NCBI RefSeq assembly: GCF_963678975.1
Contig: NC_089281.1
Location: 1,116,001-1,180,000, forward strand
Origin: Dysidea avara
Taxonomy: Eukaryota; Porifera; Demospongiae; Dictyoceratida; Dysideidae
Direction: 5' to 3'
Length of the DNA: 64,000 nucleotides
The position numbers were made by a program, and so were the translations under genes. Under the pieces are notes generated by a model. It was not told the origin of the DNA, searched no databases, and worked only from the letters and a program-made list of their open reading frames with translations. The first letter of the stretch is position 1, and each line of letters opens with the position of its first letter. This document shows, in pieces, positions 1,457-59,240 of the stretch.

Positions 1457-2589
1457 CTGAAGTATTAGTGGGTAACAATACTGGGCCTTAACACAATCAG
1501 GATTAACCTTGTGTACTACTCTACCAATAAACTGAGAAACAGAATTAGCTATTTTATGTATTATCCCCACCACACTGACCTTGTAATCTCCCAATAACAA
1601 TTAGTACAGTGTATGGACTTTTCCACTAACAAAACGTTTGTGAATATCTTTAGGACTTTTTCCAATGTATACCTCACACCTGTAGTGACTGCTATCATTA
1701 GAAAACTTTTCTGTTGTCTGTGCAAGGACCATTGCTTGGATGTGTGTGTCCTCTACATCATGTCAATCAAGATGTTGTTTTATTCCATCAGAAATCAACT
1801 GCAATGCATGCATAAAATTTAATTTAATGAAACATAATTATAGTTATTATACACATACATAATTTTTAATAATACAGGAGCAAGAAAATAATCTGATTGT
1901 AATTAGTGTGTTGTTGGTATTTCCTACTTCATTCATTAACCACCAAATTCTCAGTGAATTGTTTCACACAGCAACTACTCATATCTACAAGGAGCTCAAC
2001 TATGTTGCATGCATTAGAATGGGCTGACAAGGTTTCTATGTTGTTTAGAGACCCGAGGACGATGTGTCTATCCACAAACTTAATTACCAAGGCAGACCCA
2101 CATCATCTGAAGGGCTCTAAAATGGCATAGAAACTGATGTCGGCTGAATTTAGAAATTTCCCTGAACAAAGTAGATAAAGAAAGAGTGAAAGTGGCAAAC
2201 TGTGTGCTAGTACTGGGATTGTCAAGTTGATGTCAGTGCCACTACACTGGCATGACATTCATAACATAACGGGACAATAGTGCCAGTATATCAAGTAGTT
2301 ACTATGCAGGCTAGAATGACGCTTGTTTTGTCCAGAAAGTAAGCTATTAAGAAGCAAACTGTAAGTGTTAGCATCAAGATTTATCCTTCGAGTTTATTGT
2401 GTCAGTACCACACCATGCCAGACATTGGTCTATTGAACACCTACCTGAACGCTAATGATGCTTGTCTTGTCCAGCTAACAGTAAGGACATTAATTTTTGT
2501 TTTTGGCTTTGCCTTTTGTTATTTGATGAATGCAGTAAACAATCACTAGAGGTTACTAACTATTTAGTAACCCCACCACAGGTTTAGTA
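1457..2589. other. no confident gene
   Basis: Contains the possible minus-strand upstream exon near 1630-1755 noted for the preceding gene. The rest is AT-rich and shows only short, unsupported reading frames. Confidence 0.4.
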
Positions 2590-2942
2590 AGGTATATGTG
2601 GGTATTATGAGTCACAATATTCATTACTTCATAAGTTCATTATTTTATATTTAAATGTTGTGGAAATATTTACAGGCACTCTAATGGTATTCAAAACACC
2701 ATAGTTGACTTTGTTTTTACACTTTACATCTTCATATTCCTTACAACATGGTGAGAGGTACATGCAGCTAATCTGGAGCAGTATTCCTGCTTAATGAACT
2801 CCTAATTGGATTTGTGGTTAGCTAATGATCACTGTCTATGTTGATCTGGAGTAGTATCATCCATTTCTTTCTAAATCTGCACCCTCTGAGCATATTTTAA
2901 GCTATGCGACCCTGACCCAAAATACCAGCATATACTTTAACC
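2590..2942. repeat. dispersed repeat, copy 1 (paralogue at about 10011-10665)
   Basis: A stretch beginning GGTATATGTGGGTATTATGA and ending near CCAGCATATAC recurs at 10011-10665 with only scattered differences. The second copy carries an extra internal segment that includes a 22-bp tandem repeat. No coding capacity was seen; it is probably a non-autonomous transposon. Confidence 0.7.
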
Positions 2943-5817
2943 TCATACATCACAGGAAATATTATGCAAAAGTTTCTAACTTTTGATAACAATAACTGCA
3001 ATGAAATTATTAAAAAGCAAAATCTAAACCTTAGCAAACTTTGGTAAAATCCAGCCTGAACAATTAAACAACTTTTCTTTGTACTTGTTTGTTTGCTATC
3101 TGTATAACACAATTCAGTATGAGTAGTGAACCCGTGCACACCGCATCAACACCAGACTTAATCTTTTGAGAGCCCCTACTAGCAATTACTGAAATACTGA
3201 AATGACCATTATGCTTCATTTTCAGCTAAATACACAGCATTACAAAGTACCTCTACAATCAGTCAGAATGATGATTTTCGCTACAAATGTAAGGAAGCCG
3301 TCACATGCTACCATGAATTAACACCTTTCATTGTCAGTGAAAAGAAACGAAACATAAAGAAAGACAAAGTCCATGATGTGTAGTTATGCGCGGTGATTAT
3401 GCCAAAAGGCACCTGTAATAATGTCTAACAGTGAAAAAAATCAAGCTAATAGCCTAAGCCATTATCAAGTTATACTTGGATCAAGCAGGCAGGCAGTTAG
3501 TCAGTCAGTAGAAAATTCTGAAAAGAAATTATAAACCATAACAACTTCAAAGGGCTTGTCTCCCTAACCAGGCACCATGAAAGTATTGTGAGGCTGGTTT
3601 CTGGTCAGTATTTTTTTTTGTAAGTAAACCTTCATAATCCCACCTAACTTTGTGCCAAACAAATAAATTAATTAGAATTATGGGACTTGGTGGTGACTGT
3701 TCTATTAGAGTACTCCAATCTTTCGTTTTAGTGATGCATCACCAAGATGTTTGCAATACTATGCAACTAAAACTTATAATTATTCCTAGACCAATTATTC
3801 TGGAATACTATTTGCATGCCTACCTGAAAAGGCTCACATTAACTAAAAAACAAGTATTACCCCAGCAAGGCCAACAATTGTCTACAATCTTATTAGTTGT
3901 TAACAATTAGCCAATTATAAAGTTGTTTGTGTATATATTGTTGTTGTTTTGTATATATGTCATGCAGGAACTAGTTTTTAGCACTTTAAGCTCTATAGGT
4001 AGCACCAACTACTTCATTGTTACTATTTTTCATTGTTAAACTCTGCTCTGGATTCAGATTTTGTGCATACTTTTAGACATCTCAACCTTAAAGTAAAATT
4101 TGAGGCTAAAACAAGTGAGATTTGATAACATAAGAGTACAAAATAAGAATTTTCTTGTACACTTTGCAATATTTTATAAATTTGGCACATGCAGTTTTAG
4201 GCTAAATGGTCATTTCTCTCCATGTTTTGAGCTATCAAGGTGCTGTTGTCTTTCACATTGGTTATAATCAAGTGAGAAGCTTTTTTTTGTCATGCACAAG
4301 ATGGGAACTATACACGAGATAACTACCGAAATGCATTTATATCTCATACATTATGTGTGTGTCTCTCATATGTTTCACATGACCTGAGGTGTTTATATTT
4401 GAACCACAATAGTGTGGTGATAGTGGTTCATAATAATGCTAGCAGAAACTATAGTGGATTGTTAAGGTAAATTGTTTTGGTACACAAAAACACCAACAAT
4501 AAACTGATACTCTCTAATACAACAGTCATTCTGTGTACTTGCACGCACTTTGTAAACTACTTACTCTACAAAGCAACTAACAATAAAATTTTATATTATG
4601 AATTTATGATATGGTTAACAAATACTTATGATCAGATAAAATCTTACTGGAAGATGTGTAGCTAAACAATGCTTACACTATAGTGCTTTTAGTTACAGCA
4701 GTCCTTGAGTTGAGCTAGCCAAATGTCTAGTCAGTGTCTAGTCAGTGAGGATACTGCAATATAATTGTTTCATAAATGTACTATCTATAGACCATACATT
4801 TGTGGAATTTTAACATACAGAAAAACCATGGGTGATCCTTCTTGTGATCACTCAAAGCTTTATGTCCATTATTCTACTGCTGGCTAGTTTGCCAGATATT
4901 GTGGTGTGCCTGTTTTCACTTGGGGTTATTCGTTAATGGGTATGAGGTGTACGTAGGGATTTATTGAGTGTATATGACTGTGCAGAAGTGAGAAGTCTTT
5001 AAAGTGAGTATACCAGGAAACACACTATCTAGTTGTAAGTGTTACAAATGTTTCATTATATAGACCATAGAGTTCAACCTGAATGTGAATTTAAATACAA
5101 ACCATACTATTACCATTGGATGTTCTATTGAAATACTTCACGATATGCAAGCATGCAGCTGACCATTGATATTGATTTATTCAGTTGTGCTTCTATGCTT
5201 GCACAGAATGTAAATAATGACTGTACAATACCAAAACCCAAGCCATAAATTCTTAGTAGGTTGATCACACTCTGCTAACATTCTTATGATGGTGATCGCT
5301 AAGAGCTAAGGCAACAAGACCGCCTAATGTACTAACGCTATTTTCATGTACAGGTGTGCAGTCATGTGATCATCCAGCCACACCCACATGATCAAAAAAG
5401 AAGTAGTAATAGTAGCACATCCACATCACAACTGCTGAAGTGTGTTCATCATCTTGTTGATCACAAGTAATTGACATAATTCATTGTATACCCTTGACTA
5501 TATCAATAGGTTGAACATTCAATAAATGTACAGAGCCTGTAAAGTTTTATGTACACTTCAGTTTGTATGAGCGAGTGATGAAATTATTATCAAGGTTCAC
5601 GCAATGTTAGTGCTTATCATACAATGAATAATGTATTGATATTGGGTGTCAAAGTAGCTACGTATTTTGCGTTTCACTGCTGTTAACTTGCTCCATCAAC
5701 ACTTTAATCATAAGCATGGATTTAGTATAATAACCAGAAAGATTTGAAGCCCTCATTTTTGATAGACCATACTGATGTTAGATACTCTCTCTTTTATTGT
5801 TCACTCTTGCTTACAAT
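2943..5817. other. long stretch without a recognisable gene
   Basis: AT-rich sequence with short reading frames only. One copy of the dispersed motif (GACTGTTCTATTAGAGTA) lies near 3697-3715. A short direct duplication (GTCTAGTCAGT) lies near 4728-4746. No exon with good splice signals was recognised, though small host exons could be hidden here. Confidence 0.4.
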
Positions 5818-5993: not shown

Positions 5994-6634
5994 CAAGACG
6001 CACGGTAGTGTCGTGCGGCCCAAGAAGCCGGCGTGTAACACCCGTGAGTATATTGACTGGAAGAAAGAAAACGCAATTTTCGCACCTCCGTAGCTCTGTG
6101 CTTCCTTGACGAAACAAGACGATTTTTGCTGTGGACACTCCCTCCAACTTCAGTACTCCACATTCCAAATTTGAGTGAAATCGCTTCACGCGTTCCCGAG
6201 ATATGCGACTTCAAAAATTGGCTTAGTTTCTTCGTTTTTTTTTCTTCTTATTTTTCTTCCTCTTGTCGCACACTTACAAAAACTGCTATAAAATGCGAAC
6301 GCCATATCCGATTGCCTTGAAATTTGGCACCAAGAAGGGGGGTATAAAGGTGCAGCTCTGTACCAACATTGGCTGGAATACGATAAACAGGCAAAGAGTT
6401 ATGAGTGATTATTCACGAAAAATAGCACCAATATGTTGTCACGCCTACAGGGTAAACCGCGTATTGTAAGAAGCTGAAAATCGGTGGGTGAATAGGTTAA
6501 CTATTGAACCTCAAACCTTTTGTGGTTTGAAAGAAATCGAGCTAAAAACCAGGAAGATACAACGAAAAAACCAACAGTGTGTAACAATTATGCAATCGAG
6601 ATTAGCTAATAAAAAAACAACTGCTTGCCACGCC
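5994..6634. repeat. dispersed repeat family A, copy 1
   Basis: Starts with an inverted-repeat-like end (GACGCACGGTAGTGTCGTGC), continues through GGCCCAAGAAGCCGG and an ATATACTCACGGG-type motif (reverse complement), and ends with CGCCTACAGGGTAAACCGC. The same blocks recur at 9740-9985 with 12213-12250, at 26560-27456, and at 49650-49680 with 50701-50883 and 59032-59240. There is no transposase; short frames across it are not coding. Because several copies remain, it supplies empty sites for later insertions. Confidence 0.65.
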
Positions 6635-19728: not shown

Positions 19729-19858
19729 GGTGGCAAGGTGGCAAGGGGTGCAGGTATGGCACCCCGGGAAAAAAATATATATATAGCACGTGTTTGTTGG
19801 TTGGTCGCAATGGCGATGTTAAAATACGTCAAAATAGAGCATCGCAAGAGCTGCAACT

Positions 19859-21269
19859 GATTCATCGATTTTGTCCCAGAAAGACATTGAAGCTGCTCAG
19901 AAGTCTATTGCTAACGCTGTTAGCGCCGCAGCAGAGAAGCCCCAGAGTCGTGGAAAGTACAATTCATACTCAAAAGAACAGCGCGCTATGATTGGAAAGT
20001 ATGCTGCAGAGAATGGTCCCACCTGTGCAGCGAAACACTATTCTGCAGTTTGGGGAATTCCTATAAACGAATCCACAGCAAGAAGGCTGAAGGAAAAGTA
20101 TGAACTCAAACAAGCGGTTTCAGAACAGTGTAGAAAGCGAGCTGAAAATCGAGATGCTTCTGATGATGAGGAGCACAAAGAAGAACCTATCATTATTTCT
20201 GAACTGGAAACCAAGCCTCGAGGTAGGCCAGTACACCTGGGAGAACAGCTGGATTCGTTGGTGAAGGAGTTCATAAGTTACCTGAGAGCAGCTGGTGGAG
20301 TAGTCAATACAACTGTCGTTAGGGGGACAGCTGAAGGAATTATTTCTTATCGTGATGTTTCCAAGCTTTCTTCACATGGTGGTCACATCAACATTGCAAA
20401 GAGCTGGGCACAGTCATTGTTGCGACGAATGGGATTTGTAAAAAGAAAGTGTTCAACATCAGGAAAAATCTCAATGGCACATTTTGATGAATGCAAAGAG
20501 ATCTTCTTAGCTGATGTAGCAGCAGAGGTACTATTTAATAGTATACCACAAAGTCTGATAATCAACTGGGATCAGACTGGCTTGTCCATTGTTCCAACTG
20601 GAGATTATACAATGGAAAAAGAAGGTGCACAAACTGTACCTATTGCCCATAGTGATGACAAAAGGCAGTTAACAGCAGTTTTAGCTGTGACTGCAGCTGG
20701 TGATTACTTACCTCCACAGTTGCTCTACCAAGGGAAGACACCAAAGTGTCACCCCCAAGTCACTTTTCTAGGTGGTTGGGATGTGTGGCACTCCGAGAAT
20801 CATTGGTCCAATGAAATTACCATGAAGCGCTACATTGAGAAAATTATTGTGCCCTTTGTTACGGAGAATCGAAAAAAGCTGAAATTGGGTTCAACATCTC
20901 CTGCAGCAGCTATTTGATAATTTCCATGGACAAACAACTGATGTGATTTTGTCACTTTTAAGAAGCCACAATATTGTCCCGATTCAGTTGCCAGCTAATT
21001 GCACAGATAAACTGCAGCCATTGGACATTTCCATAAATAAACCAATGAAAGATCATCTTAAGACCAGTTTCCAACAATGGTATGCTCAAGAAGTGAAGAA
21101 ACTGTTAGAAACTGTTCCACTTGGCCAAGTCAAAGTTGATGTGGGTTTACAAGTCATCAAAAGCCCCAGTGCTAATTGGATAATCTCTGGTTGGCAGACA
21201 TTAGAAAAAAGACCTGAAGTGGCAATTAATGGATTTAGAATAGCATGCAGGGATCCTAGATGCCATTAA
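19859..21269 (+). pseudogene. pogo-like (DDE_1) transposase, frameshifted
   Basis: The first frame (about 19859-20914) holds an N-terminal helix-turn-helix-like region (YSKEQRAMIGKYAAENGPTC), then RGRPVHLGEQLDSLV and a CENP-B/Tc5-like DNA-binding part. Next is the first catalytic block NWDQTGLSIVP, followed by QLTAVLAVTAAGDYLPPQ. The frame ends at AAI-stop. One base further along, the reading frame LFDNFHGQTTDVILSLL continues with the second catalytic Asp and the third block CTDKLQPLDISINKP, ending at 21267-21269. One indel near 20900-20912 therefore breaks an otherwise complete DDE_1 protein of about 460 residues. No in-frame ATG is evident at the start; the upstream ATG at 19810 is in another frame. 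Confidence 0.8.
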
Positions 21270-21357
21270 CTTGTAGTCGTGTTTTGTTTTACTTTTGCTG
21301 TAATAGCCAAGTTTTTATAATTGTACAGCATAATTATTATAATCAAAAAAATTAATA

Positions 21358-22170
21358 TTAATACACAATAATAGCTAACTGTCCAATTGACACGCAGTTA
21401 ATACATGGAAATGCGGTGATGTTTATATCTTCAATACATTTCACCAAATGCACCCTCATTTTCGGTTGGTCATAATTCGCTGGTAGGCTTCTTTCAGCCA
21501 AACAAATGCAATTTGCAATGGCATATAGGCCACAATCCTTATCACCCACCTGCTTTCGATCATTGTTCACAACCACTTCTGCTTTAGGTCCAAATAGCTG
21601 CTTTAAAATACCAGTAGTGTTCCCATCAACAGAATCAAACAGGGAATCATATACGGTGACCTTCGGATAGCTAAGTATTGTGGAAGCAATGATCCAGTGA
21701 TTTGTTCTGCAGTGAACAATTTGTAGAAAGTTCTTTACACAACTCATGGGAACCCTTGTAGATTTATGGAGAGTCAGTGTTGATTTCAAGCCATACACAT
21801 CCTTGAACTTATTGCCGATCAACTTTTGGACAAAGTTCATGTGTTTATCCGTCAATTGTTCACCTAAAAATATTCATTTATAAAAATTATCCTGGGTCTA
21901 AACTACGTACCTTTTAAAATGATGCTTTTATCCACTGTTGTTAAGTTGCACCCACCATAACAAACCCATGAATCTTCTTTAGCAAGGTCACGGGAAGATT
22001 GACTGCATTGATCCAAATCAATGACTTTGCTTGTCTTTATCTGTTTGCATTTCTTAACTGGAGGCTCCTCTGGCTTTGCTTCAATTTCTCGCTTGGACAC
22101 TGGTACTGCACTTTGTGCATGATGTTTCAATTCAAAGTCAATTGGTGGAGCTGATCTTACAAGCTTCTTT
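21358..22170 (-). CDS. Ulp1/C48-like cysteine peptidase, two visible exons
   Basis: The upstream exon (about 22170-21911) is lysine-rich (PVKKCKQIKTSKVIDLD). It splices at a 47-bp GT-AG intron (21864-21910) into a 3' exon ending at 21358. Across the junction the frame reads ILKGEQLTDKHMNFVQKLIG, so the splice is in phase. The 3' exon carries the C48 pattern: NHWII (His), VTVYDS (Asp), then QVGDKDCGLYAIAN (Gln and catalytic Cys). Such adenain-like proteases process SUMO-type conjugates or, in large DNA transposons, occur as accessory genes. It faces the pogo-like transposase tail-to-tail with an 88-bp gap. The 5' part of the gene is separated by a LINE insertion at 22171-23848; a possible further exon starts near 23886 after a TTATTACAG acceptor. 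Confidence 0.75.
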
Positions 22171-22323
22171 ACTATTGATTTTTTTATTTTTTTATTTTAT
22201 TTTAACTGCTTTTTAATGCAGGCAAGGCCTGCATTAATGGTCTGTGGGCAACTGGTGTCCACAGCCAGAAAAAGTATTCGTACAACTTACAATTACAATT
22301 GAATGTATAAAATTACAATCAAA

Positions 22324-26520: not shown

Positions 26521-27455
26521 GCTCTATTAGGGTGACTGTTCTATTAGAGTATTTCGATCTAGCATTTTCTACACGGAGTTGGTTTTCGAATCATAACTCA
26601 GTGGTTTGTAATCCGATTCTTCTGTACTACTGCAAAGACTTTCTATGAAGATTATTCCAGCTATACACCGACTTTCAGCTCATTGCTCTAAGCGGTTTGC
26701 CTAGTAGGCGTAAAAACTAATACTTTTTTATTGTCGATCGCGTAAATGTGACACAGGTTGGGTTTTGTCATATCTCTATGGTCTTTATCTCGATGCTTTT
26801 CAAACCACCAAAAGGCACTCCTACGATGGTTGCTTTTTAACTGCTTTTTAACTGCTTGGCTCCATCTACATAGCAATTTTCAACTCATTCCATGAAGCGG
26901 TTTACCCTGTAGATTAGATTAGATTAGATTAGATTATCGATTTTTGTCAAAAGACAAGGGTCACACAAAAGGCAAAGCCTGCAAACGTGCTCCCCTTACA
27001 AAGACATACATACATACATACATACATACAGTTACAAGTACAAAATAAAACATACAGCAAAAACATGACACACGACAACTACATACCTATACAAAAAGAA
27101 AACAAAGAGAAAATTACAAAATCAGGTTAGCTGAGCAGAAATCGATCTTGTATCATGTTTTTGTGATACAAGATCGATCTGTAGGCGTGACAACAAATCG
27201 ATCTTGTTCTACGCGAATAATCGGTCATAAATCCTGAACCAATCATCGGATTTGCACCAAATTTGATACTGGGATTCGCCGTTGGACTCCCTTTCGGTGT
27301 ACCAAATTTCAAGGCGATGGGAGTATGCGTTTGCGTTTTATAGCAATTTTGCAAGTGTGCGAAAAGACGAAGAAGGATCGAGGTAAAAAAACGAAGAAAA
27401 AAAATCGATACTTTGAGATCAGAGATTTAACTGCTACCCTGTTGACTGAAGTATG
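26521..27455. repeat. dispersed repeat family A, copy 3 (most complete)
   Basis: Runs from the minisatellite junction through GAAGCGGTTTACCCTGTAG to GGCGTGACAACAAATCGATC and CGCGAATAATCGGTCATAAA, then CGAGGTAAAAAAACGAAGAA. The last two blocks are the uninterrupted counterparts of the LINE and MULE insertion sites at 49680/50701 and 50883/59032. It is itself interrupted by a short retro-insertion at 26913-27178. Confidence 0.7.
26913..27178 (-). mobile_element. short 5'-truncated retro-insertion (LINE tail)
   Basis: Begins on the + strand with an (ATTAG)n run, the complement of a 3' tail, continues with a UTR-like GGCAAAGCCTGCAAACG block and a CATA microsatellite, and is flanked by CTGTAG (26907-26912 and 27179-27184). 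The copy at 6440-6460 shows the uninterrupted sequence CCCTGTAGGCGTGACAAC (complement), confirming the insertion. Confidence 0.6.
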
Positions 27456-37809: not shown

Positions 37810-40800
37810 TAGTACTTGGTTGTATAATTAATGGTCAAAAATTGCTTGGCAGTACAAGACTGTCAAGCTAGGCCGCAGGCCTTTGAGAGCCCATATCTTG
37901 TTATTCTCCATAAATCATCAAGATTCTTCTTAAACAATGCCACGGTTGGTACAGAAATAACATCTGCTGGAAGAGAATTCCACAAATTAACTACTCTGTT
38001 GGTGAAAAAATTATGCCTCACTAGCAGCCGAGATCGAAATTTAAATAGTTTACGGTGGTGACCTCTGGTGGTATCCATATTACTCAAAGTGAAAAATGAG
38101 GTAGGGTTGATGTCATAGTAACCATTCAATATCTTGTAGGTCTCAATTAGATCTCCCCTTTGACGTCTACAATACAGTGAATATAAACCAAGTCTCTCTA
38201 GACGAGTTTCGTATGGTAAATCAAATAAACTAGGTAATAACTTGGTGGCACGTCTCTGTACTTTCTCTAGGAGATCAATATCTTTCGCCAAGTAAGGGCT
38301 CCAGACCTGGATGCAATACTCCAAGTGAGGTCTGACATACATTTTGTACAAAAAAGTCAACAATTCAACAGAAAAAAGTTTGAAGGACCTTCTTAGCAAA
38401 CCAAGAACTTGCATAGCTTTTGCTGCAGCCTTACGACACTGTAGAGATGGTTTCAAGTCTTCAGTGCACCAAATACCAAGATCTTTTTCTTCTTGCACTT
38501 CTGTGATTTCAAAGGGTAAGTTGGTGGAACTGTCCAGCATAGAGTAGGTGAATGGAGCAGAGTTACCAATCCGCATCAGCTTACATTTAGCTATATTGAA
38601 CCGAAGCAACCATGTGTGAGACCACTGCAACAATCGGTCAACATCACTTTGCAGCCTAAGGTGATCGTCAAAGCTCTGAATAACAGAATAAATTTTTGTA
38701 TCATCAGCAAACATTCTTACATTACTTTCAATAAGGTCTGGGATGTCATTAACATATAATATAAACAACAAGGGCCCTAAAACAGACCCCTGGGGGACTC
38801 CACTCACCACCTGAGCCCAAGACGACAAGTGACCATTCAACACAACTCTCTGGAAGCGGTTGGAAAGAAAGTTTGATAGCCACAAAGACAAATTACCACG
38901 AACACCAAATGCTTCCAACTTGGAGATCAATCTATGATGAGGTACAGAATCGAATGCCTTACTGTAGTCTAGAAATATGACATCAATGCCAAATCCTTGA
39001 TCCAAAGCAGAAGTCCACTCTTCAAAAGTTGATAACAAGTTAGTAAAACAGGACTTCCTGTTAACAAAACCGTGTTGCTCACCATTAGGTATGCCTTGCC
39101 CATCAAGAAAGGTTACCAATTCAGAATGTATATTAGATTCCAGGATCTTAACAACTAAAGATGTCAAACTAATTGGCCTGTAGTTGGAAGCTTGGTTTCT
39201 TTGACCCTTTTTAAAAACAGGAACAACGTGTGCCTGTTTCCACTCATCAGGGAGGACACCACTAGATAAGGATTGAGAATACAGAATGGTTAAAGGTACA
39301 TAAAGTGTGTTAGCACAAGCTTTTAAGACGTAAGAATGTATACCATCAGGGCCAGGAGCTTTGTTAACCTTGAGCTCAAGTAGCTTCTGAAGAACTGTTG
39401 ACTCTGTTATGTCAATATCACAAAAACTATCTTCAGACACAAAGGAGGGAACAGGCATACTAGATAAATTTTCTTCGGTAAATGTTGACTCAAAGAATTG
39501 GTTTAGGGTTTCAGTCACCTCCTGGTCATCAGCAGTGAGAGAACCATCACTCTTTATCAATGGGCCAATACAAGGTCTAATCTTCTGTTTAGACTTAATG
39601 TAACTGTACAGTGCTTTTGGATTAGAACGAAGCTTGTCTAACAGGGACCGTTCATAAGAATTTCTAGCAGATCGTATCTTACATTTGACATCATTGCGTT
39701 TTGCTGCATAGGTGGCATAATCAGATCTTGATTTGGAATGTTTATATTTGGTAAAGGAAAGTTGCTTAGCTTTAATGGCTTTAGAAAGGTTTTTGGACCA
39801 CCAAGGAGTAGGTTTATTATTTTTAGGAATGGAAGTCGGGATGTATTTAGCTATGGCATCTTGAACTGTCACCTTAAACACATGCCAATCATCATGAACA
39901 TTGCCAGACAGAACTTCAGACCAGTTGATACTCCCAAAGTAATCATTCATAGCCTCGTAATTACCTTTTCTGTAATTGTACATAGGGACACTCTTTTTGG
40001 AAGGCAAATCATCAAAACACTTAAATTTCCACAGTAAACAAACATGGTCACTACTACCTAGAGGGGATAGATGTGTGACTTCATCAATAGAGTTTGGGTC
40101 AAGGGTAAATATTAAATCCAAAAGTGAAGGCTGTTGGCCTTGTCTGTGACGTGTACTACTGGCAACATGCTGGACTAAAAAACTGTCTTGAACAGTGTCA
40201 AAAAATGTGGATGCTGCAGAACTATCACTACCAGCACAATAGCTTTCAGCCCAATTGATAGTTGGAAAATTAAAGTCACCCATAATTAAAAGGTGGGTAA
40301 AGTTGACTAGCTCGTAAAGTCTACCAATGATAGATAATAGTTTTTGATTATTTATGTTAGATGAAGATGGAGCTCTATAAACGACACCAACAAGGAGAAC
40401 TTCAGCGGAGGAAAGTGTGACTAAACACCACAAGGAATTCTCAAAACCTACATCAGATAAAACTTTACATGGAATAGCTGACAGTGAAGAATGTACATAA
40501 AGCACAACTCCACCGCCAACTCCAGATGGTCGATCGTCACAGAAAAGGTTGTAACCATTTAAGCAGAGTTCAGCATCGCCAATGGAACTGGTACACCAAG
40601 ACTCTGCTATTCCAATAATCAGTGGAGAATGATCATACACAACTGCTTGTAGTTCAGGAAACTTATTCATAATACTTTGAGTGTTGGTAAAAAGACAAGT
40701 AATAGCAGACATGGTATAGCTAGACACATTCCGAATCTTCTCATGATTATCAGTGCAGATAGAACAACTCAGTTCACACAATATAGCCTCCTTGAGGTAT

Positions 40801-40823
40801 CTGAATGTTTGCTCCTCACACAC
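37810..40823 (-). mobile_element. LINE with intact endonuclease/RT ORF (CR1/L2-like)
   Basis: One uninterrupted ORF of 986 codons (37863-40823). The apurinic-type endonuclease domain shows IGIAESW (about residue 70), MGDFNFP (about 190) and GSSDHVCLLW (about 255). The reverse transcriptase shows KAPGPDGIHSYVLKA (about 480), FLDYSKAFDSVPHHRLISKL (about 610), SGVPQGSVLGPLLFILYVND (about 670) and MFADDTKIYS (about 700). The C-terminus has EKVQRRATKLLPSL and NRVVNLWNSLPADV. Both RT aspartates are present. The 3' UTR is about 50 bp and ends near 37810 (CAAGTACTAAGAATAATAC). It replicates by target-primed reverse transcription. No separate ORF1 is evident upstream, so the 5' end may be incomplete; the start codon is the first in the frame, not proven. 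Related dead fragments lie at 10865 and 31868. Confidence 0.9.
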
Positions 40824-41280
40824 TGCACAAAATTCCTTTAGATTCTACTCAGACTGAGTTGATTCAGCTTGTCACCATACTTGTATACTGATTTATGCCG
40901 ATTAGAAAGGCTGGGCCTCAGACTGTACATTCTAAAGTCAAGTAAGTAAAAATAACTCACATACTAGTAAAAACAAGTCATGCATTAAGTTCCCTACTTG
41001 ATATATCCGAAGATGAACACACTGAGTCAGCTATTCCCACGATTAGTACTTCGTTACTAATGACAACCAACAAGAACCCACAATCGATCCTTAAATTCGT
41101 TTTATCTTTCTTGGGGTACGTTTGATTACCTGCTGGAAGTGCCACTGATAACTTGTACAGCAATGGTAAGCTGCAAGCTTCAATTTGAGAAAGCATTCCG
41201 TTCCGCAGTTTAGTCCATCATTCCGTTCCGTTCCGTAGAATAGACCCCACCATTTTGTACCATACGCGTATGGTACATAC
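40824..41280. other. possible LINE 5' region and CCGTT-repeat
   Basis: 40824-41190 (minus) may be LINE 5' UTR or flank; a short frame with LINE-like IVGIADSVCSSSDISS lies at 40978-41196, echoing the endonuclease start (IIGIAESWCTSS), so an older LINE piece adjoins. 41197-41260 holds CATTCCGTTCC repeats. Confidence 0.45.
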
Positions 41281-50700: not shown

Positions 50701-50883
50701 CGCGAATAATCGGTCATAAATCCTGAACCATTCATCGGATTTACACTACATTTGATACTGGGATTCGCCGTTGGACTCACTTTCGGTGTACCAAATTTCA
50801 AGGCGATCGAAGTATGCGTTTGCGTTTTATAGCAATTTTTGCAAGTGTGCGAAAAGACGAAGAAGGATCGAGGTAAAAAAAAA
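50701..50883. repeat. family A copy 4, middle part
   Basis: Matches 27217-27393 closely (CGCGAATAATCGGTCATAAA to GAAGGATCGAGGTAAAAAA). It is interrupted on the left by the LINE and on the right by the MULE. Confidence 0.8.
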
Positions 50884-51223
50884 GGCTTTTGCTATTGACA
50901 CCAATTGGTTGGTGGCGTAAAAGCCAGAAATACGCTATTGACACCAATCGAGTCACGTGACCTGATCAGATGGTATCGATATTGTGTCTGCTTCGTGGCA
51001 CGATGTGATGCGGAAAGTTTACAGAGATATTGAACACAACGCCCGTGGCCATGGTATTACTAGCGTAGAGGATTCTAGACTTATGAAGAAATTTAGGAGG
51101 CTGCTATTCCGAGTCATCGGTCAAGTGCGGCCGCCCCTTCGCTGGAGATGGAAAACAATCCATTCCAAAGAACGGAACGATGAAGATAGTAGTTTATTAG
51201 ATTGTATGAAGCATATAAATTAA

Positions 51224-52144
51224 TGTATTGTTCTAAATAATGCACACGGAGTATTAAATTCAGTTTAGAGATTTTCCTTCAAACAAGTTTCTGTGATCTT
51301 CCATGTTATCCACTCTCTTATCCGATGTGTGTTTCCCTGTGTGAATATATTGTAACTAATGAATGATACATGTATCCTAAATATACTATTAATTTAAAGG
51401 GAAATTCTGAGGTTGAGTAAAGATAGTTTTTTAATATCACTGCAAATACCTAAGACTGTATGGCACATACTCGGTGTTTGAAATGAATTTATTTGAGCAT
51501 GTCTGAATGAATACTTGTACAAGCTTGTGCTTGGAAATATTTTTTCCTTGGAACACTGTCAAGTCTGATCATACAGTACAGATTAGATGCAACTTAGCAT
51601 TTACTTGCGAGGAATTTACTTAGCATTTACTTGCGAGGAATTTACTCACACTCTAGAGTGGTTTACTTGCACTCGTGAGTACCTACAGGACCACTGGAGG
51701 CTCGAGTAAAACATTTGAGCTCACTGATAAACTCATCGAATGTTAAATGTACGTACTAGTTACGTATATGTACCTGGCCTGGTTGTGAAGCTACAGTAGA
51801 CTATTCATAGAGCTATTCATGATTCGAGCCTCAAGGACTATTCAGTACTTTTAATATTTTGGCCAATATTTTCATGGCTGATGCGCTTGATTCTGAATAT
51901 TGACTTGGAAAATGGAATGAATCGAGGGATCAGTCGTTAATCTGAGTAGGTACACAAATACTGTAGCCACGTAAATTTGAGTGTTCTCAGTCTGGAAAGT
52001 ATGAACGGAGCATATATTACTGGAACTCAAGAGTAAGCTCTCAGAACTCCACAGAAAGTTTTAATGCTTGCACCTAGTTTACTCGCACCTGCAGGTAGAC
52101 TACTCATACTCTCGGGTAGGTTACTCACACTTGGGAGTAAACTA
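51224..52144. other. noncoding interior of the MULE
   Basis: AT-rich; direct repeats of ATTTACTTGCGAGGAATTTA near 51597-51640 and several CTCGAGTAAA/ACTCACACT words up to 52145. No gene. Confidence 0.45.
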
Positions 52145-52322
52145 CAGTGGAACCTCTCTAAGAAGGACACCATTGGGGAATTATTTTTTGTCCCTTGTAA
52201 AGAGGTGTCCTTTGTTAAGGGGTGTATAAAGTACTGCTTTCATTAATTTGGGACCTTCACAGATGTCCTTTATAAAGAGGTTGTCCTCAGTTCAGGGGTG
52301 TCCTTTTAGAGGGGTTCCACTG
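52145..52322. mobile_element. pogo/Tc1-type MITE, 178 bp
   Basis: TIRs CAGTGGAACCTCTCTAA / TTAGAGGGGTTCCACTG, TA on each side (52143-52144 and 52323-52324). Internal GTCCTTTGTTAAGGGGTGT. It is nested in the MULE and shares terminal bases with the element at 46007. Confidence 0.88.
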
Positions 52323-52936
52323 TACTAGCACCCGAGAGTTATATGCTTGCTAGCATTAAGTTGCATCTAAGCTGTACCGTGCATTTTATCTGGTGAAAGT
52401 GTTTAATCAATAGTGAGCACCACTGCTTGAAGTATCTTAGTTTACTATAGTGGTATATCCCCAGTATATGGAACAATTAATTGTTTGTTATTTTAGTAGT
52501 TTTTCAGTAAACCCGCATTCACTGATGTTTTACTGAGAGTTTAAAACTTAGTAAAATAATTATGTTCCATATACTTAAGTTTACTGACACTTTACTATCA
52601 GTATAACTACAGTAAGGCATCTTAACAAATTAGTAAACTAAGAACCTTCAAGCAGTGCACATCATAGCAGACAAGCATGAATTCTAGTCAGAAAATGTCA
52701 CACGTCTAACCACTATTTCAAGCACTGCATATTAAGTAATGAAAACTACAGTACCTGTGAAAATTGGTATGATCGCTCTCCCATCATTTCATGTAATGCA
52801 TACTAGTAAATAAATTGATATCACACATGTCTGGTTGTACATACTGTATTACTTACCAAACAAACAAAGACACCACAATCACTGCTATTTGACTGTAGTG
52901 GCATATTTGAGATCTAAATTAGGTATAATTATACAT
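52323..52936. other. noncoding interior of the MULE
   Basis: An imperfect inverted pair occurs near 52445-52640 (CTTAGTTTACTATAGTGG and TTAGTAAACTAAG), possibly another MITE. No gene. Confidence 0.4.
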
Positions 52937-53849
52937 TTAGTTTACTATAATTCTAATTATGCACACCACTGATGCTGCATTAATATCTCTCCAGGTTGTC
53001 GCTGTCTTCAAAACCAACCATTCCTTAAAGACACTGATGCAACTGACATACACATTTGCAGTTGAGTCAAATAGCCACAGTTCTTTCTTTGTGGTCTGTA
53101 ACACCTGGAAACATGGCTGTTATGTATAACAGTCAATCAGAAAATATTTTACCACAAGTATCCAGTGTGACTCGTTGATGTTGACAGGAATTACCCTCAG
53201 CTCATAGTCACAAATGTTGACCTTAATCAAGTGACATTACAAATTAAGATATAATTAAAAGTTTACTTATTATTTACATCTCGGTACCATCTTTTTGCTA
53301 AATTCATATTACGGCACATACTGTTGTATAGAAAAGTGGATGCAACAAATGTATTCAGTCCCTTCTGTAATGTTATTTTGTTAATGTACAATGCTAAAAG
53401 TTAATTTCATACCATTTGTAGGCAGCGTTTTGCAGCAACCTTTAGAAACGTAGTGATTCCCTAGCGTATAACAAGATTGTACATTATGTATTGTTAACCA
53501 ATAAGTACCTTATCTGTTAGCCAGTTGCCAGGGAACAAAGCATATACATCGATGTCCATCATATCAGATGATCCCATTTTCCCAAATATACCTTGACTTG
53601 CTTCCTGCCAAATATCAAGTACCTGTATGTGTGCACATTAAATACAGTAAGTCATGAATGACATAGAAACAACATACCACTTTGCTAACTTCTGGCTTAA
53701 GTGTCCACCATTCAGGTTTACAAAGGTCAACCCAAGTATGGCTGGTACCTGAATTGTAGCTACATTTATGTTGCTCTGTGTAGAAAAGAAATTATATACT
53801 TATATATAATATACAATGCATATATATATCCATTGCTTAGCTTACTAAC

Positions 53850-54008
53850 CTGTAACAACACATCGCCTATTTACACAGCACTGCTTCTTCTTTCCTGGGC
53901 CACCATACTTGACCATATCCTGGCATGCTGAGCACTTCTGACAATCCACGGATGTGCATCCAATACACTCTCCACATCGACGGGATCTCTTTCTTTGTGT
54001 ATTATTAC
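53850..54008 (-). CDS. exon encoding the CXXC zinc finger
   Basis: Exon 3 of the MULE gene, bounded by an AAAG acceptor and an ACAG-GTTAGT donor. It has eight or nine cysteines in the CxxCxxCxxxxCxxCxxC...C...C arrangement, with RRCGEC at the start and KYGGPGKKKQ where DNMT1, MBD1 and CFP1 have KFGG. In those proteins this domain binds unmethylated CpG. The preceding intron (54009-54059, 51 bp) joins A|GT of the linker to this exon without a frame change, so the finger belongs to the transposase. Confidence 0.85.
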
Positions 54009-54369
54009 CTTTAAAAAGTTTTAAACATACGTTATTTTGCTTTACACTAAATCACTTACTTGTTTTGCCAACTTGCACACTTGGCTGAATATTCTCTTTA
54101 CACCAGTCTTCACTGTGTTGTCTTTTCTTTGATTTTGATGGCCACAGTTTGGAAGAGTATTTTGGACGACCTCGAGCTTTTATACTAGGCTTCAGGTGTA
54201 TTGAGCTTTTTTTAATGGATGTGACTGCTAAGTTTTTCAGTTGTGTTTGCTTACCAGCTCCATTACCGTCAATAATCTCCTCGATACTGCTGTGTAGAAT
54301 GGTATTTTGTTGCATGGTAGCCCTCTTGGCTGGTTTCATAATCTGTTTTTCAAGCTGTGCAGTATCATC

Positions 54370-54960
54370 ATGCCTTGTGGTATCACTCTGTTGCGTGACA
54401 TCACCATGCCTTGTGGTATCACTGTGCTGTGTGACCTCACCATGCCTTGTAGTATCACTGTGCTGTGTGACATCACTGTGCCCTGTGGTATCACCGTACT
54501 GTGTGACATCACCGTGCCTTGTGGTATCACTGTGCTGTGTGACATCACCGTGCCTTGTGGTATCACCGTGCTGTGTGACATCACAATGCCTTGTGGTATC
54601 ACCATGCTGTGTGACATCACAATGCCCTGTGGTATCACCGTGCTTTGTGACATCACCATGCCTTGTGGTATCACCGTGCTGTGTGACATCACCATGCCTT
54701 GTAGTATCACCATGCTGTGTGACATCGCTATGCCTTGTAGTATCACCATGCCCTGTGGTATCACCATACTGTGTGACATCACCGTGCTGTGTGACATCAC
54801 TGTGCCTTGTGGTATCATCGTACTGTGTGACATCATCGTGGCTTGTGGTATCACCGTGCTGTGTGACATCATCGTGGCTTGTGATATCACCGTGTTGTGT
54901 GACATCAGTGTGCTGTGTGAAATCAACATGCCATGTGGTATCACTGTACTGTGTGGTTTC
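54370..54960 (-). repeat. 36-bp coding minisatellite in the transposase
   Basis: About sixteen units of 36 bp on the minus strand encode the 12-residue repeat DVTQHGDTTRHG with variants (Y for H, S for G, G/S for R). All units keep the frame, with no stop, although the gene has lesions elsewhere. The plus strand is also open (Cys-rich) as a by-product. Confidence 0.9.
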
Positions 54961-56854
54961 ATCATCAATATCACACTCGACTTCATATTCTATGGTTTCC
55001 CATGAACACTCCTTAACAGCTTCATCACTGGCAACCTGCCCATCTAGTGTTGATTCCTCATGATCGCTTGTGCATTTTTCACATTCATCATCACAGCTTA
55101 CAACAATACATTTTGAACCTGAGTCCCAGTTCTTTACCAGCATTTCAACTGTGTTGTACATCTCTCGAAACTGTGGCATGCCAACCATGCTAGCCTGAGC
55201 TGCAATCTTTTGGCACAAATTCAACATTTTCTTATACTTTTGAGCTTGATTAAGTGTTTTCTGCATGGGTGGTTCTGGCAAAAGATCATACTCAAGTGCA
55301 CAATTGCTAGTACAGGCTGGGTCATCATGATGGGTGCTTTCTGTGACAAAGTCGATTTGATAAGATTTCAGCCAACGCTGATTTATCATAGACAGATCTA
55401 CAACAGAAAGACCCTTGTGCAAACGAGTACCAATTATGTGCCTACAAGGAAGCAACATAGTGTTCCAGAATGAGCAAGAACAAACACCAGCTTCTATGTC
55501 CACACTGTGAGTGTGGTCTTTATACTTTACTGCTACTGCAGAATCACCTGTGACTACAAACTCGTAATCAACTTTCTGAGCTACTTCTACCTGATTCTGT
55601 AGACGTTTATCCTGTACAGATCGCAGAAACTTCTTGCATTCCAGCAACATGGTCAAGTTTAGTTGATATAGAAGTAAACTGCTCTACGAAAGCATTGTGG
55701 CTACTCTCTTGGTTGATGAAGTTCATAAAGCTGAGTACCCCTTCAAACATCTCAGAAGGTGAGGATGTACGACCAATTAAATCTTTAAGCTTGCTATGGC
55801 TACATTCTAAACGGTTATTTGTTGTGTTTCCAAAGTGAACACTAGAATCACGTTGAAAGGAAGCCCACATCTCCAAGCAGCTATTCCAGGTATCAAAAAA
55901 GTATTTCTCAAAACTGGGACCCAGGCGTACAATTTCAGCTAAGTAGTCTTCATAATCATCCATGCTTTCACTATAGACAATATCATGTAAAACTTTCCTT
56001 AAGCTGTCCCTTTGTTCTTTGGGAACTTCTGCATCTGACACAGCTTTGTAAAAGCACTTAATCACATGAAACTGGCAAAACACAATTGTAGCAGTTGGAA
56101 TTTCATCCTTAAGTACAGCTATCTCTGTGAAATCTTTGTCTATTACAATAACCTTAGTGTTTCCGTAGCATAGATTGCTATTCTTAAATGCTTGGACAAT
56201 GGCTCTCAAATGTTGTGCATTCTCGTCTGTGGTAGCAGCATAAAACACAGTTCTCCCATGACCATTGCCATCCTCTATCATAAAGGAGTATAGAGGCATA
56301 CGAGACTTATTCACATTGTAAGTTCCATCAATCATAAGCACCTCTGGGAACTTTTCATACAAACCTAGCAAGTGAGAAGATGCAAAGTAAATGATAGACA
56401 ATTCGCTATTTTCATTGACAATTATGCCTCCTTTACTACCCTGATCTCTTTGCATTTCCTCTTCTAGCCGGTCAATTGTAACCTGTGCCTCATCACGACC
56501 ACCTTTAGCTTGAATTTTAACCTTAGTGCGTACATTTTGAATATCTTTTAATATAACCTGCTTCCCGAACTGCTTTAAGATATATTGTCTCACCAATTTC
56601 AATTTTGGGGCAAGTGTAACAAAATCTTCTATCTCCTTCAACTCATCACCAGCCAGTCGTCATTTAAATGGATAATGAGGCAAAACTTCTGGCCCTATTG
56701 GATGACAGTGTTCCAAATTGCATTTCCGCACTTCAAACTTCCTAGCATGGTGATTATATGAAACATACAACTCAGCTTGGCACTTCAGAGCAAAATGATG
56801 TTGAGTTGGCCTAACTCCTTTGCCTCTTTTTCTTGGCTCCCCTAGTGTACACAC

Positions 56855-58660
56855 CTATGCAAAAAATACAGCTATTGTTAATTTTATTGTATATAATATA
56901 TTGCTTACAAATCTTTGTATGTACGCTACTTGTTTTGAAGGTACTGACATGGCAAACTAGGGTACAGTACAGTTATACATACCCAACTGAGTACACTGTT
57001 TGCACCACATAATATGCACAATACCTATAGATAGTTTCTATAATCAAGTGTGGGTAGTACTGTATGTCAGGGATTATGAAGGTTTGCACATTCTTACAAC
57101 AATATTGATCAGAAAACAACCTCACAATACTTCACAGCACCTTGGCAATATTGGTGAGACAAGTCCAAAAGTGTCTTCTGTGCAGGAGTTGGAAAAAGGG
57201 TTAAGACATTGTCACTAATACAATTTATGCAGCTAATTTTCACAGCTGACATTTTAGCATTTGTTTCCAGGCTCAGACATCTTGTCATCGTGTAGCAATT
57301 ATTCGTTTATAAGCACGTTTGCAAGGCACAGAATATTATTATATAGACCATAATACTGCCGGATGAGAAACATGTGGCATTGTTTTAAGTTGTGACATTC
57401 AAGCCTGCAAGGTTGTGCTTTTACAGGGTAAGTGACATTAAAAAGGTAGCTGAAAAGCTAATAAACAAATATAATAAGGTAGTGATATATGATTACTTTA
57501 ACTACTTGAATTTCTGATGATAGTTAACATCTAGTCTTGCATACCACATGGTTTATGTGGGGGCAGCAAATAAATTGTCTGGTGTCTGTTGCACACATTA
57601 CGGACTAGTGGTCAGCGGTATTGAAATTTGAATTAGTAGTAAGAAAATATCGTGGTATATAGTATATAGTTAGCCTGCTATTTTAAGTATTGCATCATAG
57701 CTTAGGCTTAATATGAAGTGGTATGCATTCAAAAAACCAAAGAATGTAGCTTGGTGTAAGAAGGCAGATGCTTGTAGTGTGCAACCTCAATGTTTGTTTA
57801 GCAAATGCTTGAAGCCATCAACAGTTTAGGTTAAAAGCAATACTGGTATTTTGATATATTGGTCAAAAAACCAGTATTTCGATACATCGGTATTGAAATA
57901 CCTCATAATCAGTTATGCAAATTTATCACGATAAACGGTATATCGCTGAGCACTATTACGGACCACTACCAGAATGTTGGCAAGGCCAGTCAGATCACTT
58001 CATGCACTTTATGATGAAACAAACACCAATTATTCAAATTCTTAGTGCTGAATCTGGCTTTCTCTACAGGCTGTTGTTTATGAGCAATATGGGCTTAGGA
58101 TCTTAGTTTCCCTACTACAGGAAAAGGATATGGTTTGCTACGACTTCGTGAAATGGCAAAACTGTAGAGAAAGACTTTCAACAATGCCTCAGATAAATTA
58201 CCAAGACATTACTAGTACAACATTAGCCTCAGTCTGTTCACAGAGGTGAATAGCAAGACTATTACATCATCCTTGGTGCAAAACAATGCCACTATGTATT
58301 CTGGTGTTCATGGAAAGTGTGCAACAGTGACCAGATGGTTTATTTTCCGCCTCCGGCCCACACAAACTGTCAGGCATGCAAAACCGGTCAACATCATCAC
58401 TAACAGTAGTACTATAACAGTCATTTGATGTTTACTCAAATCTACACGTACACCCGGGAGGGGGGCAGTGGGGCTTAATATTGATAGGTGCATTATTTGG
58501 AAGATACACCTTACTGTCTCAGGCTTAATCTCAAATACTAAGTGTGAACTTCAACTTTCTGATATTGTAGGTTTGTTTTGTTCTCAGCTTATAACAAAAG
58601 TGAGAATTTTCGTATCCAGTCAAGCAAAAATCCTAGAATAAACACTCTGTGATTACTAAC
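56855..58660 (-). other. long intron 1 of the MULE gene
   Basis: No coding. Near 57600-57960 GGTCAGCGGTATTGAAA and CGGTATATCGCTGAGCAC suggest a further MITE with degenerate ends, without a clear duplication. 58455-58498 is a GGGGCAGTGGGGC / ATTGATAGGTGCATTAT repeat also seen near 15690. Confidence 0.5.
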
Positions 58661-59031
58661 CTATATGATACAAAGGCAAATTTCAAGCTCTCAATAAGTC
58701 TCAAATTACTGCCAGTGTTCTCCCGTCGTTGGTTGTACTCTTTTACAGACTGAGAGTTGAAACGTCGAAATGGATGGTAATGCTCATTTACTAGCCGTTT
58801 CACAGCCTCCTCAATTTCTTCATAAGTCTCGAATCCTCTACCAACAGCTATTTCAGCCATATCCATGGCCACGAACGATTACTCAATATCTCTAAATTTT
58901 CCGCATCACATCGTGCCAGGAGGTAGACACAGTATCGATACAATCTGATCAGGTCACGTGACTCGATTGGTGTCGATAGCGTATTGGTGGCCCTTAGCGC
59001 CACCAACTAATTGGTGTTAATAGCAAAAGCC

Positions 59032-59240
59032 AAAAAAAAAACGAAGAAAAAATCGATACTTTGGCAACTCGTATCTCGGAAATGGCTGGAGCGATTTCCT
59101 CCAAATTTGGAATGTAGACTTCCCTAGCTGGCGTGCAACTCTGTAGCACATTTGGCTCCAATCGGATAAGGGATCACCGAGTTACTTTCTGTTAATATAC
59201 CCACAGTGTGGCGCGCCGGATTCTTGGGCCTGTAACAAAA
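59032..59240. repeat. family A copy 4, right part
   Basis: Continues CGAAGAAAAAATCGATACTT from the MULE insertion point, as at 27399, and ends with GTGTGGCGCGCCGGATTCTTGGG, the family A end. Confidence 0.75.

Follow-up and report, generated by a model that had tools for sequence, protein, structure and literature searches.

A 64,000-nucleotide stretch of contig NC_089281.1 of the sponge Dysidea avara (positions 1,116,001 to 1,180,000 of the forward strand; hereafter the window) contains a Mutator-like element (MULE) of 8,148 bp. Its gene, on the minus strand, is predicted to join a transposase to a CXXC zinc finger and a ULP1/SENP-type protease. CXXC-type domains recognise unmethylated CpG DNA. 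The DNA itself shows the fusion in the gene model, its spread in several copies, its conservation, and the high CpG density of the insertion sites. We infer that splicing follows the model, that the finger binds CpG in this protein and chooses insertion sites, and that the ULP1 domain acts on SUMO. The explanation that we favour is an autonomous-type MULE with C-terminal SWIM, AT-hook-like, CXXC and ULP1 accessory domains, in which the CXXC finger would guide the element to CpG clusters. Taken as a whole, we give this explanation about an even chance.

Gene and element structure

Eleven exons were located on the minus strand, with the domain order ZSWIM3_N, MULE DDE core, SWIM, repeat linker, AT-hook-like motif, CXXC finger and ULP1/SENP-type protease (Table 1). 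The exons were traced down to 52755, and the 3′ end of the gene was not located. A first-pass annotation, made from the letters alone, had proposed an in-phase chain of MULE core, SWIM finger and CXXC finger within 52937-58866. The order and the strand of this chain were confirmed, but its coding sequence is not intact. In the window copy, exon 2 is damaged at three places: compared with other copies it has an indel just past the exon start, it contains a TGA at 56660-56662, and its frame shifts near 55640. Exon 3 is followed by eight further exons coding for a linker and the protease. The protease, the terminal inverted repeats (TIRs), the AT-hook-like motif and the damage had been missed, and the span had been set too short: the TIRs and the flanking A runs delimit the element at 50884-59031.

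The ZSWIM3_N domain is coded by exon 1 and the start of exon 2 (37.7 bits, cut-off 27.8, computed with an earlier phase-0 junction of the two exons). That junction (GTAATC) was discarded; other copies show a phase-2 junction. The core matched the Pfam families ZSWIM1-3_RNaseH (PF21056, 2.5e-37) and MULE (PF10551, 1.6e-15), and its motifs MIDGTYN, VIDKD, FCQFH and NNRLE are those that we take to hold the catalytic triad. The SWIM finger scored 17.1 bits, under the cut-off of 19.6, but its CxCx9CxH motif is present. The RGRPK core that follows the repeat linker is AT-hook-like, with no Pfam match listed for it.

Exon 3 is reached from exon 2 through a 51-nt GT-AG intron, in phase. It has the eight zinc cysteines and the KFGG-type segment of a CXXC finger, and matched zf-CXXC at 1.9e-12 (47.4 bits, cut-off 26.5). 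Compared with DNMT1, 24 of 41 residues and all eight cysteines are identical, and the closest solved relatives are the CXXC domains of DNMT1, KMT2B, KDM2B and others. There is no ATG ahead of the first finger cysteine in the frame of exon 3. Therefore, an upstream exon is required. Introns 2-10 are all in-phase GT-AG introns of 48-74 nt. Since exon borders were picked with homology in view, the profile scores test the model independently but the absence of stops along the chain does not. A single-sequence AlphaFold model of the CXXC frame was too poor (predicted local distance difference test 52) for its Foldseek matches to have meaning. The ULP1 domain scored 49.4 bits (cut-off 20.7) over profile positions 63-184 of 217, and SENP5 matched at 2.6e-12. 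Together with the motifs SHW, WLFDS and LQSNSSDCG, presumably the catalytic His, Asp and Gln/Cys, this match places it in the ULP1/SENP (C48) family.

The two TIRs are 84% identical across 232 columns, and the right one contains the start codon and the first codons of the gene. The length of the target duplication is inexact in the window, where the flanking A runs measure 9 (left) and 10 (right). Exact 9-mers flank other copies (TTTTTATTT at copy L011 and TAATAAGTT at copy L012), and copy L009 has TAAAAAAAG at one side with the opposite side one A shorter; the duplications of the element are A/T-rich and 9 bp long. When the flanks of the window element were joined, they aligned across the junction to a related repeat without insertion (Table 1) and to a second one at 6157-6330 (78%). 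Therefore, the ends are right, and such sites exist free of the insertion. In its DDE core, long TIRs, target duplication within 8-11 bp, zinc finger and multiple mobile copies, the element has the features of a MULE.

Table 1 Features of the element and its gene in the window.
Feature	Position	Strand	Remarks
Left TIR (3′ of gene)	50884..51103	+	220 bp; begins GGCTTTTGCTATT; 11 CpG, observed/expected 1.03
Right TIR (5′ of gene)	58803..59031	-	229 bp; 11 CpG, observed/expected 0.97
Target duplication, left copy	50875..50883	.	A9
Target duplication, right copy	59032..59040	.	A9, within a run of 10 A
Exon 1	58661..58866	-	ATG at 58866, inside right TIR
Exon 2	54060..56854	-	MULE DDE core, SWIM, repeat linker, AT-hook-like motif; coding frame disrupted in window copy
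DDE-type motifs	55805..56335	-	MIDGTYN 56315-56335, VIDKD 56132-56146, FCQFH 56066-56080, NNRLE 55805-55819
SWIM finger CSCSFWNTMLLPCRH	55438..55482	-	Motif CxCx9CxH
Coding minisatellite	54364..54907	-	36-bp unit, 15 copies, in-frame linker
AT-hook-like core RGRPK	54160..54174	-	
Exon 3, CXXC finger	53850..54008	-	Domain 53860-53982; 8 conserved Cys; KYGGPGKKKQ
Exon 4, linker	53678..53775	-	
Exons 5-11, ULP1/SENP-type (C48) protease	52755..53622	-	53622-53509, 53439-53413, 53364-53278, 53221-53153, 53104-52967, 52913-52857, 52802-52755
Protease motifs		-	SHW 53162-53170, WLFDS 53063-53077, LQSNSSDCG 52872-52898
Related repeat without insertion	27211..27415	+	Joined element flanks align over junction, 94%

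Copies and related families in the genome

The genome of the sponge (550.8 Mb, 108 contigs) was searched with the zf-CXXC profile, giving 150 scored matches of 193 candidates, and 10 kb of sequence was taken around 20 matches: five copies of the window element (L009-L013) and 15 other high-scoring loci. The five copies are mostly 95-99% identical to the window element over the aligned stretches, with some stretches missing or interrupted. Their exon 3 is 99-100% identical and keeps both splice signals, so that the CXXC exon is retained in six copies including that of the window. The outcome that the first-pass annotation had named as refuting, intact relatives that consistently lack this exon, was not observed: the five other copies have it, although no copy is demonstrably intact throughout. 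In L012, a frame of 881 amino acids, preceded by one stop, extends from the core as far as the splice donor. In L013 (element coordinates 4042-4697), the 654-bp minisatellite region of the window copy measures about 5.5 kb, a large expansion or insertion. A search of the same genome with the TIR gave 15 matches, grouped into eight insertions. Several copies with TIRs and 9-bp duplications bear out the proposal that a transposon lineage carries the CXXC domain.

The ratio of nonsynonymous to synonymous substitution (dN/dS, Nei-Gojobori) against a diverged relative, L026, was 0.18 for the CXXC domain (48 codons) and 0.12 for ULP1 (154 codons); the SWIM region (88 codons) gave 0.10 and the linker exon 4 gave 0.39, all from this one sequence pair. 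The core of L026 has 63-64% amino acid identity, with saturated synonymous sites. On these values the CXXC domain looks conserved by selection. In the other collections searched, no relatives were found among viral contigs (with the core, the CXXC domain and the TIR pattern) or genome contigs (with the core and the tail).

The combination of a CXXC finger with a ULP1 or OTU protease is, by profile matches, common to several MULE families of this genome and not a property of one element. Of the 20 CXXC loci, 14 have a same-strand MULE core upstream and 17 have ULP1 or OTU at most 1.3 kb downstream; none of these core or protease matches is on the opposite strand. The models used for this count were built partly from the same loci, and Pfam was run on 20 of the open frames. 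Independently of these models, Pfam identified MULE/ZSWIM cores in L016, L018, L020 and L027, with SWIM above its cut-off in L016, L018 and L027 and below it in L020. It identified OTU in L015, L016, L022, L024 and L025, OTU standing in place of ULP1 in other MULE families of the genome. No protease was found within 1.3 kb at L018, L021 and L027. Within the 10 kb taken, no MULE core was found at the CXXC-OTU loci L015, L022, L024 and L025, nor at L010 and L013, for which core matches lie farther upstream in the genome-wide list. TIRs were looked for at the other CXXC families and at L026 and were not found.

A genome-wide search with the ZSWIM1-3 RNase H profile gave 150 scored matches of 264 candidates. 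A same-strand CXXC match lies 0-12 kb downstream of 49 of the 150 listed core matches (median 2.9 kb), which correspond to at most 47 cores, because two CXXC-bearing cores were split into two matches each. The controls among the listed matches were one pair for same-strand upstream and two for the opposite strand. Conversely, 47 of the 150 listed CXXC matches lie behind a MULE core, against a random mean of 0.26 and a largest value of 2 in 200 placements, for which contig sizes were partly approximated. In an unrooted tree of nine cores, family A stands beside CXXC-less cores, apart from the CXXC families B-E. Therefore, the finger was either acquired repeatedly or dropped by some lineages.

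Some loci in these searches differ from the MULE arrangement. L015 and L025 have OTU after CXXC and no MULE core within the 10 kb taken, and cassettes of this kind may be carried by other types of element as well. Upstream of the CXXC-OTU pair of L022 is an open reading frame for a YqaJ / viral alkaline exonuclease (1816-3093, plus strand), perhaps another kind of CXXC element. L001 and L006 (C3:17370303-17373681) contain three CXXC matches, two on the plus and one on the minus strand, in open frames of 394 and 372 amino acids that are possibly host genes.

CpG at the termini and insertion sites

The window is depleted in CpG (observed/expected 0.46) and the interior of the element even more so (0.39). 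The TIRs, in contrast to the interior, have a ratio of 0.92-1.07 in the window copy, L011 and L012, and the 11 CpG of each TIR are reached by none of 1,495 interior windows of 225 bp. The insertion-site sample comprised eight insertions with 13 flanks, C6, C15 and L013 being represented by one flank each. For L009, a later insertion lay within the flank/TIR stretch first used, and this stretch was replaced or left out. From the element outward, the flanks contain 6.15, 4.23, 2.27, 1.85, 1.69 and 1.32 CpG per 100 bp (the last at 1-1.5 kb), and individual flanks hold between 5 and 15 CpG within 200 bp of the element. Pooled CpG observed/expected falls from 1.38 to 0.35 while G+C stays nearly steady (0.42 to 0.39). 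CpG density was higher near the element (0-200 bp) than far from it (0.7-1.5 kb) at all eight insertions (Wilcoxon: P = 0.0039). The mean of 10.4 CpG per 200 bp at the insertions, compared with 3.1-3.4 in the window outside the element, was reached by none of 20,000 resamples. Two pairs of flanks are homologous (L012/C6 and L011/window). When these were dropped (C6 and L011R left out) and the poorer flank was used, seven sites still showed 9.3 CpG per 200 bp versus 2.96 in a background of 216 kb of genome, largely transposon-rich (P = 5e-6). Five inverted-repeat elements of the window served as a control: over the first and second 100 bp outward their flanks contain 2.4 and 1.6 CpG per 100 bp on average, although two of the ten flanks reach 6-7. 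The copies appear to be young, and the relatives of the window site that lack the insertion are also located in CpG-rich stretches. Therefore, the CpG density at the sites is most likely older than the insertions.

These observations suggest a mechanism in which the CXXC finger would hold the complex of transposase and DNA at clusters of unmethylated CpG, and new copies would consequently land in CpG-rich, expression-permissive patches. Copies with unmethylated, CpG-rich TIRs would be bound best. The A/T-rich 9-bp cut site would be selected by the core, perhaps together with the AT-hook, and ULP1 (OTU in the sister families) may strip SUMO or ubiquitin marks off host proteins that act there in repair or silencing. 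In its strongest form, this reading holds that a eukaryotic cut-and-paste transposase reads the methylation state of DNA, its CXXC finger directing new insertions into small patches of unmethylated CpG. MULE lineages of a CpG-depleted genome would repeatedly have gained or kept CXXC together with a SUMO/ubiquitin protease, which would have spread many CXXC domains and made CpG-patch targeting a transposon strategy. We put this stronger form forward tentatively and consider it somewhat doubtful. If it is true, a transposase that distinguishes methylation would have a direct means of selecting permissive sites and of detecting when it is itself silenced. The genome also shows that transposons have multiplied CXXC domains; hosts might recruit new chromatin readers from these, and gene annotation can be misled by them. 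The recurrent pairing with ULP1 or OTU points to the removal of SUMO or ubiquitin as a shared need of MULEs.

Several observations weigh against guidance by the finger. The sample is only eight insertions, three of them one-flanked, and the end of L013 comes from a 73% TIR match. Outside the element, 7.7% of 225-bp windows reach the 11 CpG of a TIR. CpG density is not proof of an unmethylated state. Among the matches listed, 101 of 150 MULE cores have no CXXC nearby. Two MULE copies without CXXC, L044 and L045, have 5′ ends (L044:2306 and L045:2310, both putative) with CpG observed/expected of 1.42 and 1.35, and at these putative ends their flanks contain 4 and 4, and 1 and 7, CpG per 100 bp (average 4). 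Therefore, the CpG preference may not need CXXC. At the putative 5′ boundaries of family B, which has CXXC and OTU (L014, L016 and L017), there are 0-1 CpG per 100 bp. The early suggestion of insertion into CpG islands thus agrees with the denser CpG beside the element at eight of eight sites, but CXXC as its cause is called into question by L044/L045 and family B. To our knowledge, the maize Mu element has no CXXC finger. Mu also favours hypomethylated DNA: in the cited sections of PMC2774946, its insertions are five times denser than control in hypomethylated regions and five times rarer in methylated ones.

The latter observations lead to the alternative that we consider quite possible, although short of an even chance. 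The fusion would be real and selected, but the CXXC finger would act on the element itself, by binding its CpG-rich TIRs or promoter or by gating excision or expression by methylation, and the CpG-rich targets would reflect a general taste of MULEs for open, promoter-like chromatin. In its favour are the TIRs, with a CpG ratio of about 1 inside an element of 0.39, the CpG-rich ends and flanks of L044 and L045, and the maize data. However, this CXXC-less control consists of two copies with putative ends. The CpG peak of family A lies within about 200 bp, with near above far at all eight sites, and the five inverted-repeat elements of the window stay low on average in spite of their two rich flanks.

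The remaining alternatives fare much worse. The finger might be a zinc-binding module for dimerisation or protein contact that has nothing to do with CpG, and CXXC domains without a KFGG-type motif are not known to bind CpG. However, the KYGG...KKKQ segment, which we take to make the CpG contact, is present here and DNMT1-like, and we regard this explanation as very improbable. Still less probable, and already contradicted, is the capture of a host CXXC gene fragment as a functionless passenger, as in Pack-MULEs. Mutator-like elements are known to capture gene fragments (PMC8277862 and PMC6446971, in the parts cited), but the low dN/dS of the CXXC domain, the in-phase splicing and a domain order that recurs across several diverged families oppose this. 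In addition, the cited part of PMC8277862 finds no Pack-MULE in 100 animal reference genomes, while arguing that Ssk-FB4 of Drosophila populations is one. Finally, it is hardly credible that a MULE relic merely adjoins a CXXC-ULP1 host gene of separate origin, or that the two were joined in assembly: exon 2 could stop a few bases beyond its donor, but CXXC lies within the TIRs, copies elsewhere have the same layout with 9-bp duplications, and no ATG precedes the finger in its frame.

Known systems and other features of the window

Among the known MULEs, KI-MULE/Kaonashi elements also have a ULP1 protease. The CXXC finger of the window element is shared with DNMT1, KMT2B, KDM2B and CFP1, and its eight cysteines with DNMT1 and KDM2B in pairwise comparison, but these are host chromatin proteins without a transposase. 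Mutator-type elements with ULP1, PHD or SET are already described in the literature cited here, as far as the sections considered go. The SWIM-bearing MULEs of the Curupira, Ghost and MuDR groups (Dupeyron et al. 2019, PMC6446971) share the MULE DDE core, SWIM, long TIRs and the 9-bp target duplication with the window element. The additional domains listed in the cited part of that work are SWIM, FLYWCH, CCHC, C2H2, PHD, RING, SET and others, whereas the window element has CXXC; the words CXXC, sponge and Porifera do not occur in its main text. ULP1-bearing Mutator elements of hydra, lancelet and plants, cited in PMC2836005, combine MULE and ULP1 as in the window. The portion of PMC2836005 considered describes Mutator transposases with ULP1 and PHD, and does not contain the word CXXC. 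No report of a MULE with a CXXC finger was found in the open-access literature, Repbase not being searched; CXXC, MULE, SWIM and sponge do not occur in PMC12062965.

Ginger1 elements (PMC2836005, same portion) resemble the window element in having a transposase with a C-terminal ULP1 or OTU, once with PHD and ULP1, but their core is of the integrase type with a GPY/F motif, not MULE, and CXXC is not mentioned for them there. For the window core, Pfam listed MULE but no family of integrases, no search for GPY/F being made. Rehavkus, as described in the cited part of PMC6446971, likewise has a 9-bp target duplication, a chromatin-type finger and a minisatellite. Its finger is PHD and its minisatellite lies before the 3′ TIR, whereas the window element has CXXC and a coding minisatellite between SWIM and CXXC; a Pfam scan of the exons gave no PHD finger at E ≤ 1. 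TET/JBP-encoding fungal elements (PMC12730594, in the part cited) are also DNA transposons with an epigenetic domain, in their case a methylcytosine-modifying enzyme as opposed to the predicted reader of the window element.

The window contains further transposon sequences. A piece of a DDE_1 transposase lies at 20883-21266 (plus strand; region 19838-22196), with an upstream frame that has no Pfam match. Tail to tail with it is a second ULP1-type open reading frame (21361-21873, minus strand; 22.6 bits, cut-off 20.7), another pairing of a transposase with a SUMO protease. Reverse transcriptase frames of long interspersed nuclear elements (LINEs) flank the MULE on either side, and an open LINE frame of 993 amino acids with endonuclease and reverse transcriptase is found at 37866-40844 (minus strand).

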